From contig PCXA01000001.1 in assembly GCA_002796325.1 (NCBI GenBank), positions 436,752 through 498,244 of the forward strand: a DNA stretch of 61,493 bases, given 5' to 3'. This stretch comes from Deltaproteobacteria bacterium CG11_big_fil_rev_8_21_14_0_20_47_16. GTDB lineage: Bacteria > UBA10199 > GCA-002796325 > 1-14-0-20-47-16. The position numbers and the translations under genes were made by a program. Every line of letters begins with the position of its first letter. Positions within the stretch are counted from its first letter, which is position 1. This document shows, piece by piece, positions 42,318-57,000 of the stretch. The notes beneath the pieces are model-generated. The model saw nothing but the letters and a program-made list of their open reading frames with translations, made no database searches and was not told the DNA's origin.

Positions 42318-42349
42318 TGTGCACCCCGTACATTTCGCCTAGGGTTTAT
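42318..42349 (+). repeat. REP-like element, copy 1 (left flank of RAYT)
   Basis: 32 bp identical to 52284-52315 and present inverted (28 bp, one mismatch) at 43139-43166. The core is CCCCGTACATTTCGCC. It can fold as a bulged hairpin: ACCC pairs with GGGT, and CG with CG around a TACATTT loop, with CCTA bulged. It lies between pelG and the RAYT stop. Placement beside a RAYT suggests a REP mobilised by that protein. Confidence 0.8.
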
Positions 42350-42368
42350 TTCTATTAATATCAGTTAG

Positions 42369-42998
42369 TTAGATTGTTTTTGGTTTTTTGGGAAGGCGTT
42401 TTGGTTGTAGCATATGGCGTATTGTTGCTTGCTCCCTTGCTTCATCGCTGGGTAATAAGTTGATGACAAAATCTCTGTAGAAACCTCGTCGGACTTCTTC
42501 GTTGTGTGCGAGTCCTAAGTATGATGGGTGTGGATCGATCGGAATTTTTGAATCGCCATGTGAATAAAAATTATATGCTGACCACGCCCATTTTTTTGGA
42601 TGTTCAACAATTCCGGCACGGACTGGATTGCGATCTAAATATCTCATGCAAGAAAGTGCGTATCTGTCTGTGTCAATTACCGAACATTTATAGTCATTGA
42701 TCCAAAGATGCCCATGGCGCTGATGTCGTTTATTGTAATCAAAAGCATACTTCTGATTGATTCCGTGCATGACGTGATTAAGCAGCGCAGGCCCGGGGGT
42801 GGTAATAATCAAATGAACATGACTATGCATAATAACAAGGTGATTTAGAAAAAATCCAAGCTGTTGGCGGCACTGGTCTACTATAAAAAGATATCGGTCA
42901 AAATCGTCCTTGGTTTGAAATCGAAAGTCCTTGTTGTTGCACTGCACGCGCACATGATAGCAAAGTCCCTCACCCAGTTTTCTTGGATAGCGTCCCAT
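42369..42998 (-). CDS. REP-associated tyrosine transposase (RAYT, Y1_Tnp/IS200-like), 209 aa
   Basis: A single-strand-DNA HUH nuclease. The HUH motif is HSHVHLI (in LVIMHSHVHLIITTP). The putative nucleophile tyrosine lies in the helix NQKYAFDYNKRH. RHGHLW, YALSCMRYLDRNPVRAGIVEHPKKWAWSAY is the RAYT-specific C-terminal block. The N-terminal MGRYPRKLGEGLCYHVRVQCNN is also typical. These proteins bind and cleave REP hairpins and are usually single copy and domesticated. Here the gene is flanked by inverted copies of a REP-like element. It appears intact and is isolated between the convergent pel and btu operons. Confidence 0.93.
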   Translation of the reverse strand: MGRYPRKLGEGLCYHVRVQCNNKDFRFQTKDDFDRYLFIVDQCRQQLGFFLNHLVIMHSHVHLIITTPGPALLNHVMHGINQKYAFDYNKRHQRHGHLWINDYKCSVIDTDRYALSCMRYLDRNPVRAGIVEHPKKWAWSAYNFYSHGDSKIPIDPHPSYLGLAHNEEVRRGFYRDFVINLLPSDEAREQATIRHMLQPKRLPKKPKTI

Positions 42999-43138
42999 AC
43001 CATTTGCTTTTGCAGATATTATGCCAATTGTTGTTGGCTATTTGTTGGGATTTGAGAGGGGTACTGTTTTATTTTTGGACAATGAATGTACAAAACTTGA
43101 ACGGCGAAAGTCTGTAACATGTTGATTGCGAATAGGAA

Positions 43139-43166
43139 AAACCCTGGGCGAAATGTACGGGGTGCA
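43139..43166 (-). repeat. REP-like element, copy 2 (right flank of RAYT, inverted)
   Basis: On the minus strand this reads as copy 1 with a single C-for-T change in the CGCC(T/C)AGGG segment, and the few bases beyond GGGTTT also resemble copy 1. It therefore forms an inverted pair with 42318-42349 around the RAYT gene. A short tandem GGTGCAGGGG x2 (43161-43180) abuts it. Spacer 42999-43183 holds nothing else I recognise. Confidence 0.78.
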
Positions 43167-43183
43167 GGGGGGTGCAGGGGAGG

Positions 43184-52061: not shown

Positions 52062-52074
52062 GGTTAAGTGAAAG

Positions 52075-52262
52075 TTACTCTGAAGAGAGGTCTCCTGACT
52101 TGCGACAAACTGGTTCCCCTTGCCTTCCCATTTGGTTGGAAAAACCAAACAGTGACTAACGGGGACCCCCCAAAATCGCTTACAGTGGCGGGACCGTGTA
52201 GGAATTGCACCTACTTCCCTGATTCTTCAGTGTGTGGGCGCTTAGTGCCTCAGTGGGGTAAC
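52075..52262 (-). promoter_or_regulatory. Cobalamin riboswitch controlling the btu operon
   Basis: Reading on the minus strand, the transcript carries the conserved aptamer blocks in order: GGGAAGTAGGTGCAATTCCT, then CGGTCCCGCCACTGTAAGCG, a variable arm, and finally the B12 box AAGTCAGGAGACCT (52088-52101). This is the standard AdoCbl-type aptamer. It lies about 40 nt upstream of btuB and faces it, so cobalamin should repress the run btuB to tonB. Exact boundaries are approximate. Confidence 0.95.
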
Positions 52263-52283
52263 GTCAAGCAAATCCCCCCCTTG

Positions 52284-52315
52284 TGTGCACCCCGTACATT
52301 TCGCCTAGGGTTTAT
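52284..52315 (+). repeat. REP-like element, solo copy 3 beside the riboswitch
   Basis: Identical over 32 bp to 42318-42349, 10 kb from the RAYT gene. The next 20 bp after GGGTTTAT are also partly similar (T-rich, ending TTAGT-like). It occupies the 65-bp gap between the riboswitch 5' end and the stop of the O-antigen ligase-like gene. No transposase accompanies it, as expected for a REP dispersed by a RAYT in trans. Confidence 0.8.
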
Positions 52316-52326
52316 CTCTTTTAAAA

Positions 52327-53964
52327 TTAGTGGGTTATGGATTTTAGAAAATGGTGGGCCCCTTGATTGCTGGGGTCGTTGTGGAGACTATGTTCAAAAT
52401 AGCTTCGTGCGGCTGCGCGGTCACCATCACGTAGTGCCTGTACACCCTTCATGTAGAGAACTGCAGGAACGAAGGGATACTCATTATATAATTGGCTCAC
52501 AACCGCAGCTGCTTCCGGTGCATTCGCTTGCATCAAATTTGCAGCCAATGTGAATTGGGCATCAAAGTTGTGTGGCGCCAAACGTGCGGCCATTCGTGAT
52601 TCAGAAATGCGATCTTGAAGTGAGGATGCTGTTTGTGTGCGTTGAACGTAAATGAGAGCCGTTTGATTGAGTGCAACATTTAATGTGAGCACCAGTACAA
52701 TTATTGCAGCGAGTATTTTAGATGTGATTAATATTCGTGAGCTATTGTTTGCGGTGGCATAAAAAAGAATACCAATAGAAAATGCGATATATAAGCGTGT
52801 TATGGGCATAATGTAATTTGTACTGAACTGCCAACTGATGAGGGCGATAGTGATGCTCATCAGGCTGGTAATGATAAGAATCTGATTTTGAAAGGGACGT
52901 TTTGAAATATCCTTGAAACCTCTGCGGTAAATGTAAACGCATCCTAGTAGGAAGAGAAAGAGTCCTGGTATTCCAAGCTCCATTGTCTGATGTAGCAGCT
53001 CGTTGTGTGGATGCATAAACCAGACATGGCTGGTCACCACAGAGTCGAACGCCTTGCGGTGTGCATATTCTGGGTAAATGAACCTAAAGTTGTCTAAGCC
53101 CCAGCCTATTATAGGGCGATCACGGATGATGCTGAGTGTTGTGAGGTAAGTGTGCCACCGATTAGATGATGCATCTTCCAAGCGGAGTGTGACCATGTCA
53201 TGTAAGCGCTGAATTGTTGGATCGCTGACTTGGGTTTTTTGTGAAATGGTTGTGATAGCGGCACCAACAATTAGCGTGAGTGCCAAAAATGTGTAAATCT
53301 GCTTTCGCTTCAAATAATGGATTTTATGGAGACCAATGATCATTATAAGGATTCCACCTACACACCCCAAAATGCTTGCACGTCTTGCGGACTCCCATAG
53401 GCCTTCAAGAATAATAATCACTAATAGTGTTGTGAGTGGTACCCAAATTTTTCTGGATACTTTTGTGCTGAGATAAAAAACTAATGGAATTTGCAGTGCT
53501 ATAAAATCGCTATAGTAGGTGATGTGGCCAATAGGTGAAACAAAAGGAGCTTGCGACCAAAGGAATGATGTGGTTGGGAGCAAGTGTTTGGCAGCAATAA
53601 TTAGTACGGCTGAGGTAATGCTACAAATTGAAATGTATAAAATGGTTGTTGAGCTTTGTTGTGAAAAAAACCATGCGATGGCAATCCAAAGCAGGAGTTG
53701 GCTCAATTCTTCAAATCCAAATATATAACCCATTGGTGATAGTAAAATTGAGATAATGCAGATGGTGCAGTAAAGAACAAGGCCCGTTGTGAGTGCCGTG
53801 GAAGGGATGGCAATGCCCCTTCTTAAAATAAGCCAAGTCACACATAATCCACCTCCAACATAGAGTAAGGTGTTTTTGACATCATCGTACGGTCGGGGGA
53901 AAACTTCGGTAAAACTCCAAATGATGGCGAGCCACCAGGCTAGAATAACTGTGACTAATTTCAT
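52327..53964 (-). CDS. O-antigen ligase/polymerase-like (Wzy/WaaL) membrane protein with C-terminal TPRs, 545 aa
   Basis: About 10-12 helices with the O-antigen-ligase signature region: WESARRASILG, RPIIGWGLDNFRFIYPEYAHRKAF in the large periplasmic loop, and HPHNELLHQTMELGIPGLFLF, containing the conserved H-x-H-N-x-x-L pattern. A soluble C-terminus (about 440-545) has TPR-like repeats (LAPHNFDAQFTLAANLMQANAPEAA, LRDGDRAAARSYFEHSLHNDPSNQGAHH), as in several WaaL/PglL-like enzymes. It may ligate or polymerise O-antigen, or glycosylate proteins. It follows the cysteine-rich gene by 40 bp in the same direction. Confidence 0.82.
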   Translation of the reverse strand: MKLVTVILAWWLAIIWSFTEVFPRPYDDVKNTLLYVGGGLCVTWLILRRGIAIPSTALTTGLVLYCTICIISILLSPMGYIFGFEELSQLLLWIAIAWFFSQQSSTTILYISICSITSAVLIIAAKHLLPTTSFLWSQAPFVSPIGHITYYSDFIALQIPLVFYLSTKVSRKIWVPLTTLLVIIILEGLWESARRASILGCVGGILIMIIGLHKIHYLKRKQIYTFLALTLIVGAAITTISQKTQVSDPTIQRLHDMVTLRLEDASSNRWHTYLTTLSIIRDRPIIGWGLDNFRFIYPEYAHRKAFDSVVTSHVWFMHPHNELLHQTMELGIPGLFLFLLGCVYIYRRGFKDISKRPFQNQILIITSLMSITIALISWQFSTNYIMPITRLYIAFSIGILFYATANNSSRILITSKILAAIIVLVLTLNVALNQTALIYVQRTQTASSLQDRISESRMAARLAPHNFDAQFTLAANLMQANAPEAAAVVSQLYNEYPFVPAVLYMKGVQALRDGDRAAARSYFEHSLHNDPSNQGAHHFLKSITH

Positions 53965-54004: not shown

Positions 54005-57000
54005 CTAATTTCCATACGGGTCCTTAGGAGGGGAAGAGTATGGATCTTTGGGAGGTGTGCATTTTGGTATACTGTCAAATGTGGGACATGTAACGGTTGT
54101 GTTAACATAGCCAGGATAATATATGACATCTTTGGATATGCATGTGGAGGAGATTGTTGGAGAATATGGATCTTTGGGATTGCCAGTGCAGACTAACATT
54201 CCTGAAGTGTTTGTGCAGCCAGCAGTATTTTTCCCTTCTGTATTTTTGATGTTACATGCAGGTTCTCCAAAGGCGCAGACCGGGTCTAATGCGGAGGTTG
54301 CTAACAATGGATATTGTGTACCCGTTCCGATACCCAGTTGCCCATCTTTGTTGATGCCCCAACATTTAACGGTACCATCTTTAAGAATCGCGCAATTGAA
54401 GCCGCTACCGCTTGTAAGGCTTGTAGCGCCTGCAAGGCCTTTGACGGTAATTGGTATGAGCGACTTGTTGGTTGTTCCATCTCCCAGTTGGCCCGATACG
54501 TTATTGCCCCAACATTTAATAGTGCTGTCTGAGAGAAGGGCGCAGCTAAATGTGTCACTTCTGTTGATTTGTTGGACATTATTTAGGTTCTTAACGGTAG
54601 CTGGGTCGGATGAATAAGCTTCGGTGCCATTTCCTGCTTGCCCATAGTAATTGTATCCCCAGCATTTAGCGGTTCCGTCATTAAGTGTGACGCAGGTTGT
54701 GCTATTGTAGGAATTAATTGATATTGCATTGGATACTCCGACAACGCTAGCTGGTAAGGGCGCATCATTTTGTGTGCCGTTGCCAAGTTCTTTTGCTATG
54801 TTGTATCCCCAACATTTAGCGGTTCCGTCTTTAAGAAGAGCACAGTTGAACATGTAGCCAGAGCTGATTGCTATTGCATTATCAATGCCAGTTACATTGG
54901 TGGGGACGCTTGAATTATTTTTTGTGCCATTACCCAGTTGGCCGTGATTGTTGCGTCCCAGGCATTTAACAGTACCATCGTTGAGTAGGGCACAGGTGGT
55001 ATCATTGCCCAAGATTACTTTTGATATATTCGAAATATTGGGAACGACGATGGGTGTCTGCATATAGTTATTTGATCCATAACCCAGTTGTCCAGAATAG
55101 TTGTCTCCCCAGCATGAGAGGCTGCCATCACTTGAAGTGGCACAGGCGTTGGTGGGTCCAACAAATATGTTTGTGGCATTTGTGATGTTGCTGACTTTGA
55201 CGGGAATGTTTGATGAGCTTGTAGATCCATTACCCAGTTGTCCATAGTTGTTCGTTCCCCAACACATAACGGTTCCATCTTTAAGTAATGCACAGAAGAA
55301 TTTTTTGCCGGCTGCTATTTGAGAGGCGTTGGTTATATTTTTGACGTTGGTTGGTGAATAAGCATCAAAGTCAGTGCCAATGCCTAGCTGCCCAGAGTAG
55401 TTTGCTCCCCAACATTTGATTGACCCGCTATTGAGAAGTGCACAGACTGAGCTGTTGTCAATTGCAATTTCCTTTATACCACTTATGTTGCATTCGCATG
55501 CATCACCCTTGCCATCTGAATTGCTGTCCTTTTGGTCAGTGTTGGCCTGGAACGGACAATTATCTTTATCGTCCTTAATACTGTCGTTGTCTGAGTCGAT
55601 GCATTGGGAATCTGATGTGTTTGCTGTGCCTTCAACACAGGTTCCTGCAATACATTTTTCACTGCCATTGCAGATATTGCTATCAAGACATTCACTGTCG
55701 GTCTGGCATAGTTTGGGTGGCAGTCCTTTGTCTGCACCAAGTGGTTTTTCACAGGCGCCATCTAGCGGATTGCATAAATTAGGTGCAGCGCATTTTTGAA
55801 TATGACTCACGGTACCATTAGTGCAGCTGTCGATTGTGCAAATATCACCATCATCGGTTTGTTTGCCAATGCAAGGGTCTTCACATGCACCAGTGTTAGG
55901 ATTGCAGACGTTGGGTGAGGTGCATTTTGGTGTGTGGGTGACAGTGCCGTTTGTACACGCATCAATTGTACAGATGTTGCTGTCATCGACTTGCTTGCCT
56001 GAACAAAGGTCAATGGGCTTGCATTGCCCTGTTTCGTCACACTTTTCTCCGACAGGGCAAAGGTCTTGGGGTGTTTTGACTATGCCTTTCAAAGGATCAC
56101 AACTGACATTTTCGCAGGCGGTTGATGATGTTGTTATAGCCAAATGTGAACAGGTATTGGCAGAGCAGGCGTCAGTGGTGCATGCGTTGTTGTCATTGCA
56201 ATCGCTCGCAGATAGGCATTCAAGACATGTACCTCCGGAGCAAACCTTCTTATCAGTTGGGCAATCGATTGCTTGAGTGTAACTATTGCTGTCGTTGATA
56301 CATTGGACTTGGATCAATTTTCCACTATTGTCGCAGAAGTCGTTACCAGAGATTGTTTTTCCGTTTTCAATCCACGAAATTTCACCCAAAATGGTTGGAT
56401 CGTTTTGAGGATCGATGGCATCCTTGCAATTAGTACATAGATTGTTAGCGCCACAACCAAGTGGGCAGATTTCAACTTTCTTGTAGGCATCTCCTATGCT
56501 TTGGCAAAGCCCTGAAGCTATAGCGTTGTCGTCACAGCATGCCCAAGTTTCATGTGTGTTTTGTGCTTGAATGCAGGAGTTGATACTTTCTTTGGTGTCG
56601 ATAATTTCTCCTTTGAAATTGGTGGTAATCTGAATGACTCCATCCTGAGTAGGTTTGTATCCGCAAGTTTTTGTTAATTTTTCAACACAGAGCCCCTGAT
56701 AGCAAACTTTACCGTCAGGACAAAACTCAGGGTCTTTGGATTTGAATCCAGATGGATTACTTATGTCGCATATGGTTTTAACAATTTTTTCAGGTATTGC
56801 GAGGTCACAACTATCATAACTAGTAAATGCGGAGCCCTTTGAGGTTGTTCCCTTAACACCATGTACGCCGACATCATTTTGAATGTCAGTGCATTGGGGT
56901 TCTTGTGGGAGATAGCATACACCGTCACCGCAGAGTTGTGTGCCGGGACACGTGAATGTTTTACTGCTATATCCTTTAGAGTTTCCAGCATCGCATTTGA

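Follow-up and report, generated by a model that had tools for sequence, protein, structure and literature searches.

The locus described here raises the question of whether a RAYT gene that lies between inverted repeats belongs to a REPtron, the unit formed by a RAYT (TnpA-REP) gene and its flanking REPs (PMC2817692, PMC6006769), and of what kind of element its repeats represent. The gene is found in a stretch of 61,493 nucleotides (hereafter the window) from the genome of Deltaproteobacteria bacterium CG11_big_fil_rev_8_21_14_0_20_47_16. A first-pass annotation of the window had proposed a REPtron-like unit, consisting of an intact RAYT bracketed by inverted copies of an intergenic element of 28-32 bp, and had placed a third, solitary copy near positions 52284-52315. 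It had also attributed a short bulged hairpin to the element, considered it a candidate for a new REP family, and suggested a location at the 3' ends of genes. The features discussed below are collected in Table 1.

Table 1. Coordinates of the RAYT, the element copies and neighbouring features (window positions, except for the second repeat, which is given by genome, contig and position)
Feature	Position	Strand	Details
Element copy, 3' side of the RAYT	42320-42371	+	core 42320-42349 with CCCCGTACATTTCGCC match at 42324-42339 (+), 4-bp spacer, AT-rich stretch, IHF-type site 42359-42371 (TATCAGTTAGTTA)
RAYT stop codon, overlapped by the tail	42369-42371		
RAYT / TnpA-REP-like Y1 transposase	42369-42998	-	209 aa; Pfam Y1_Tnp 39 bits; NCBIfam REP_Tyr_transpos 68.4 bits
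Inverted element copy, 5' side of the RAYT	43115-43166	-	core 43137-43166 with CCCCGTACATTTCGCC match at 43147-43162 (-), IHF-type site 43115-43127 (AATCAACATGTTA, - strand)
Short repeat of the element's outer end	43167-43181	.	TGCACCCC on - strand, abutting the 5'-side copy
Cobalamin riboswitch	52068-52269	-	82 bits
Solitary element copy	52286-52337	+	core 52286-52315 with CCCCGTACATTTCGCC match at 52290-52305 (+), IHF-type site 52325-52337 (AATTAGTGGGTTA)
Stop codon of the O-antigen-ligase-like gene, overlapped by the tail	52327-52329		
Tandem 150-bp repeats	54324-55429		
Second repeat, copies L127-L133	G000:C1:370518, C2:31950, C9:48606, C9:101677, C9:107305, C9:125237, C14:74355		GGTGTCCCACACC NNN GGTGCAGGGCT

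The gene between the inverted copies is indeed an intact RAYT: the HuH motif SHVH (in MHSHVHL), W98, Y119 and the NPVRAG motif (in RYLDRNPVRAG) are all present, and H59, H61, W98, Y119 and N123 are conserved in an alignment of 22 sequences. The match to the NCBIfam model REP_Tyr_transpos (NF047646) covers the full length and scores below the cut-off of 80 bits, the protein being a divergent member of this family. Its AlphaFold model (pLDDT 90.4) has as best fold match in the PDB the E. coli RAYT in complex with a REP hairpin (4er8, E 7e-7, TM 0.76 by target length), which is followed by the IS200/IS605 transposases; a sequence search against the PDB gave no match, and a pattern search found no close relative of the protein. 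In most of its closest relatives the residue preceding the HuH motif is S or T, versus N or D in the published subclasses (PMC6006769), and the lineage with S/T at this position may constitute an undescribed subclass. No other RAYT gene occurs in the genome. An IS200/IS605 insertion sequence was discarded as an explanation of the locus, since this would require multiple near-identical full copies with transposase, and the genome holds a single transposase copy.

The repeat that flanks this gene forms a small family dispersed over the genome. Even with up to three mismatches allowed, the core CCCCGTACATTTCGCC matches the window only at the two flanking copies and at the solitary copy, which was thus correctly recognized in the first-pass annotation; shuffled sequences yielded a mean of 0.29 matches, and none of 100 shuffles gave three. 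The whole source genome (G000; 1.95 Mb, 20 contigs) contains 11 cores (9 exact, 2 with one mismatch) and no match to the reversed control pattern, so that the family is not limited to the three copies of the window. A profile search with the complete element returned exactly 11 full copies and nothing intermediate, the next-best match being a tail-only site (E 0.013, a rough value, as are all E-values from shortened calibrations). Two copies are inverted around the RAYT and nine are solitary elsewhere in the genome. None of the 11 falls within a gene, although called genes cover 92.3% of the bases and intergenic DNA 7.7% in a 1.55-Mb sample; the intergenic location noted for the copies of the window therefore applies to the entire family, at odds with any chance distribution over genes. 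The exact core was not found in the GTDB collection searched (own genome excluded), nor was the R1 repeat pattern found in 45 other genomes of the class, in a comparison set where the family of the source organism is represented by the source genome alone. As the RAYT has an inverted copy on either side and the repeat is dispersed and strictly extragenic, the unit can be called REPtron-like, as had been proposed.

In a gapless alignment of the 11 copies, for which the core alone had served as query, the element proves longer than the 28-32 bp initially assigned to it. It measures approximately 52 bp and consists of TGCACCCCGTACATTTCGCCTAGGGTTTAT, four variable bases and TTTAAAATYAANNNGTTR, i.e., a spacer and a conserved tail extend beyond the core. 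The left edge is sharp at TGCA and the right one lies just past GTTR. Mean pairwise identity reaches 0.96 in the core (30 bp), drops to 0.30 in the 4-bp spacer and amounts to 0.69 in the remainder of the element. Every element in the source genome has one core, and both flanking copies have their tail on the side that faces the RAYT. A dissimilar 4-bp spacer between conserved blocks is unlike the outcome of a simple recent copying of the 52-bp unit; the combination of an invariant core, a random spacer and a conserved site implies one of two histories: either whole elements are old and selection has acted on each block separately, or cores came to lie at a constant distance from sites that already existed. 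The short repeat of the outer end that abuts the 5'-side copy (TGCACCCC) was not seen adjoining the other 10 copies, and is possibly an insertion scar.

Known RAYTs bind folded single strands. The bulged hairpin attributed to the element was not recovered by fold prediction: the core as single-stranded DNA reaches -1.5 kcal/mol, and 119 of 200 dinucleotide shuffles fold at least as well (z +0.37), as do 132 of 200 for the opposite strand (z +0.48). The GT[AG]G foot of REPs is also absent, the drawn stem being preceded by TGC (GTGC in 8 of the 11 copies). The element lacks support for one defining feature of REPs, the hairpin, and does not have a second, the foot; it does share with them the trait of being extragenic, dispersed and multicopy, with a number of copies far below the typical family size. 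As for the suggested new REP family, the repeat sequence is absent from the other genomes searched, but it is no canonical REP.

What the element possesses is a tail with the consensus AATYARNNNNTTR, which fits the IHF consensus WATCARNNNNTTR given in the literature (PMC8421141). The match lies at one fixed position in all copies, with 7 mismatches over 99 scored cells: six copies match throughout, four differ by one C-to-T change each and one by three mismatches. In 5000 permutations of the tail columns (any offset, either strand) the best total had a mean of 36.7 and a minimum of 13. As the copies were collected by the core alone, the tail was not selected for. An AT-rich stretch lies to the left of the match, and strong IHF sites have an A-tract on their left side. 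The pattern WATCAANNNNTTR occurs 38 times in intergenic and 110 times in coding DNA over 1.55 Mb, of which 7.7% is intergenic. Its intergenic count ranks first among 120 letter-permuted patterns (38 versus 16 for the next) and its intergenic fraction third, the two patterns above it having 6-7 intergenic matches each; 31 intergenic sites are left once both repeat families of this genome (see below for the second) are excluded. This strong genome-wide preference for intergenic DNA supports a real host site, and the tail is a likely binding site for the DNA-bending protein IHF. Searches with the E. coli IHF and HU proteins, covering 1.55 of the 1.95 Mb (80% of the genome), detected a single HU homologue but neither an IHF alpha nor an IHF beta gene of the canonical type.

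Intergenic TTTAAAATCAANNNNTTR-like sites without a core were also observed (L151, L157, L158, L160, L165, L167 and L168), some of them upstream of fusA-like, pnp-like and hemC-like genes, and are likely ordinary IHF-type sites. The source genome moreover contains a second dispersed repeat, partly terminator-like, with seven exact copies (Table 1). The IHF-type tail recurs in several of these, in an unchanged register with respect to an AGGG motif, which points to a variable core part combined with a retained tail. Because the genome has one RAYT, none belongs to this second repeat.

The location of the element at gene 3' ends, already suspected from the window, holds for nearly the whole family: 10 of the 11 copies start 0-32 bp past the stop codon of the left-hand gene, in the same orientation as that gene. 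In six of the 11 a gene enters the tail from the opposite side, with its stop codon inside the tail in all six, which led us to discard a promoter function. Within the window, the tails overlap the stop codons of the RAYT and of an O-antigen-ligase-like gene, the 3' end of the latter being covered by the solitary copy; this copy sits between that upstream gene's stop and a cobalamin riboswitch ahead of a btuB-like gene. No copy lies between divergent genes (P 0.03), and five of the nine solitary ones occupy a convergent gap or the end of a convergent gene (P 0.003). The latter value is generous, since one copy (L006) can be counted as codirectional, its downstream gene being riboswitch-led and on the same strand, which leaves four of nine; these placement statistics, obtained from gene calls over 1.55 Mb made with a simple ORF rule, are descriptive. 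It is possible that the element affects mRNA 3' ends. An intrinsic terminator was rejected for want of a stable hairpin and T-run. The tail has stop codons in two or three frames more often than shuffles do, yet a three-frame stop cassette was equally rejected: all three frames are stopped in just 4 of the 11 copies, and the IHF consensus accounts better for these positions.

The closest relatives of the RAYT are found in other orders of the class, and most have inverted repeats on both sides, often palindromic ones (e.g. GGTACCAGGTACC and GGTGCCAGGCACC), with dispersed copies too. The closest one (L071, 53% identity), encoded by genome G037 of another order, shows a parallel architecture. Its own repeat core, GTACCWGGTCGCG, hardly folds and is dispersed in G037, for the most part in direct pairs with a constant distance of 54 bp; the gene itself is located between two inverted units that each consist of a core, an IHF-like site and a second core. 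The IHF-like site occupies the same offset in eight of eight units (0-2 mismatches), and the 41-nt spacer between the cores is constant in length and variable in sequence. Some units of G037 lie in divergent promoter regions, which means that placement at 3' ends is not universal. Near the repeats of more distant RAYT relatives, an IHF site was found in 5 of 25 flanks versus 2.8 in shuffles (p 0.13), and it was accordingly discarded as a general trait of the RAYT subfamily. The RAYT-like genes of the source organism's order-mates belong to another group, the TIRYT kind, and have GGGGTCAAG-type TIRs on either side; in L042, L064 and L067 such TIRYT-type terminal repeats are arranged in direct tandem at distances of 40-57 bp, either beside RAYT-like genes or on their own. 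In the genomes of two relatives, G033 and G035, we counted 51 and 63 matches to the reversed control pattern CCAYGGACCRTGG, and these genomes probably hold another abundant palindromic repeat family.

When compared to described systems, the unit shares with REPtrons an HuH/Y1 RAYT and, on both sides of it, inverted copies of a repeat that is lineage-specific, extragenic and dispersed over the genome, and differs from them in a repeat that is not demonstrably palindromic, has no GT[AG]G foot and exists in 11 copies rather than hundreds, as well as in the S/T before HuH. The TIRtrons and their TIRYT genes described by Di Nocera et al. (PMC3733652) likewise combine a RAYT-like gene with terminal inverted repeats that enclose it and have no relation to REPs, and their dispersed TIR copies are moderately abundant. 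Unlike these, our repeat lacks the GGGGWSAS motif and contains an IHF-type site in each copy, and the 209-aa protein is without the C-terminal HTH/DnaA-like extension of TIRYTs (subclass 2.1), an extension found in the order-mates' proteins of about 300 aa. The association of a RAYT-linked repeat with an IHF-consensus site, at a fixed position and at gene 3' ends, recalls the RIB/BIME-1 elements of enterobacteria, presented as REP-IHF site-REP at gene 3' ends where PMC2817692 cites Boccard and Prentki (1993), and the core-IHF-core units of G037 do so as well. With respect to that description, our element has one core, and G037 two direct ones, in place of inverted REPs; core sequence and lineage are unrelated; and the IHF site is here a putative one. 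The only BIME cluster found in two 50-kb stretches of E. coli MG1655 was without an IHF match and gave no yardstick for RIBs. Small dispersed elements with an internal IHF site are further known among MITEs, namely the Correia elements of Neisseria and QMITE1 of Coxiella (PMC2229807, PMC5896051); these have terminal inverted repeats inside a single element, and the passages that present them mention no RAYT nearby, whereas a solitary copy here corresponds to a single end. Altogether, the unit resembles a TIRtron or REPtron with a RIB-like (REP plus IHF) element and not one with a canonical REP.

We consider it fairly probable that the locus is a unit of the REPtron/TIRtron type whose cognate element is a composite of core and IHF-type site, the copies having been dispersed by the RAYT and an IHF/HU-type protein bending the DNA at gene ends. 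Against this reading speak the poor folding of the core, the lack of a canonical IHF gene in the 80% of the genome covered, the deviations from the IHF consensus in five copies, the failure to find IHF sites near the repeats of more distant RAYT relatives, and the random spacer. The mobility, protein binding and effect on expression that we infer for it could be accounted for as follows. The core of about 30 bp would presumably be the part recognized by the RAYT, which, now or formerly, would have copied or moved the core-containing element via single-stranded DNA, and selection would have removed all but the extragenic copies. An IHF- or HU-type nucleoid protein could bind the tail and bend the DNA, and may aid the assembly of the RAYT complex, while solitary copies may isolate convergent or successive genes, as is thought for the enterobacterial RIB/BIME-1. 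The succession of an invariant core, a random spacer and a partly conserved tail could also arise if the tail were the RAYT's own cleavage or target motif, with cores inserted at a fixed offset from pre-existing TTTAAAATYAANNNNGTTR sites; such insertion explains why an invariant core stands next to a random spacer, tail-only sites of the same consensus do exist at other intergenic places, and IS200/IS605 cleavage sites are chosen through guide sequences beside palindromes (PMC8266576). We regard this as unlikely, as the tail faces the RAYT in both flanking copies and would therefore be part of the unit rather than an outer target, reproduces the IHF consensus down to its degenerate positions, and contains a pattern (WATCAANNNNTTR) enriched in intergenic DNA far beyond the element repeats.

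A near-invariant core beside a randomized spacer is equally what would be expected of old selected sites, and the placement of the copies, almost all of them no more than 32 bp from a stop codon and none in a divergent gap, agrees with this. The element might then be an immobile host regulatory or 3'-end site (a terminator, an insulator or the site of another protein), selected at 11 places and only secondarily associated with the RAYT. This appears improbable to us in view of the missing terminator-like hairpin, of the inverted repeats that flank RAYTs of the same family throughout the class, and of the different core in the cognate repeat of the closest relative, changed together with its RAYT. 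A canonical REP family, i.e., a short palindromic hairpin with a tetranucleotide foot recognized by the RAYT, is disfavoured and seems very unlikely: the inverted flanking copies, the extragenic dispersal, a CCC/GGG stem that can be drawn and the clearly palindromic repeats of related RAYTs in the class, such as GGTGCCAGGCACC, would fit it, but the core folds no better than shuffles on either strand, the foot is missing and the copies number 11 as opposed to hundreds. A bolder proposal, conceivable if rather doubtful, is that of a RAYT lineage whose cognate element is no folded palindrome but a composite of core and IHF site, in which substrate recognition or strand opening would depend on a DNA-bending nucleoid protein.

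Under this last proposal, RAYT systems would have adopted the REP-IHF (RIB) architecture repeatedly, and it would be no peculiarity of enterobacteria. Why REP-type repeats persist, and why some contain IHF sites, are questions that rest mainly on enterobacteria. The small and clean system found here (one RAYT, 11 elements and a fixed core-to-IHF spacing), with a counterpart in a second order, offers a way of testing whether the RAYT, the ends of host genes or both profit from the nucleoid protein. RAYT-linked repeats can be devoid of the hairpin that is usually searched for, and surveys based on palindromes may miss such families.

Further along the window, we observed a series of at least seven tandem 150-bp repeats (Table 1), about 60-75% alike and with a period divisible by three, which probably encode a repeat protein.
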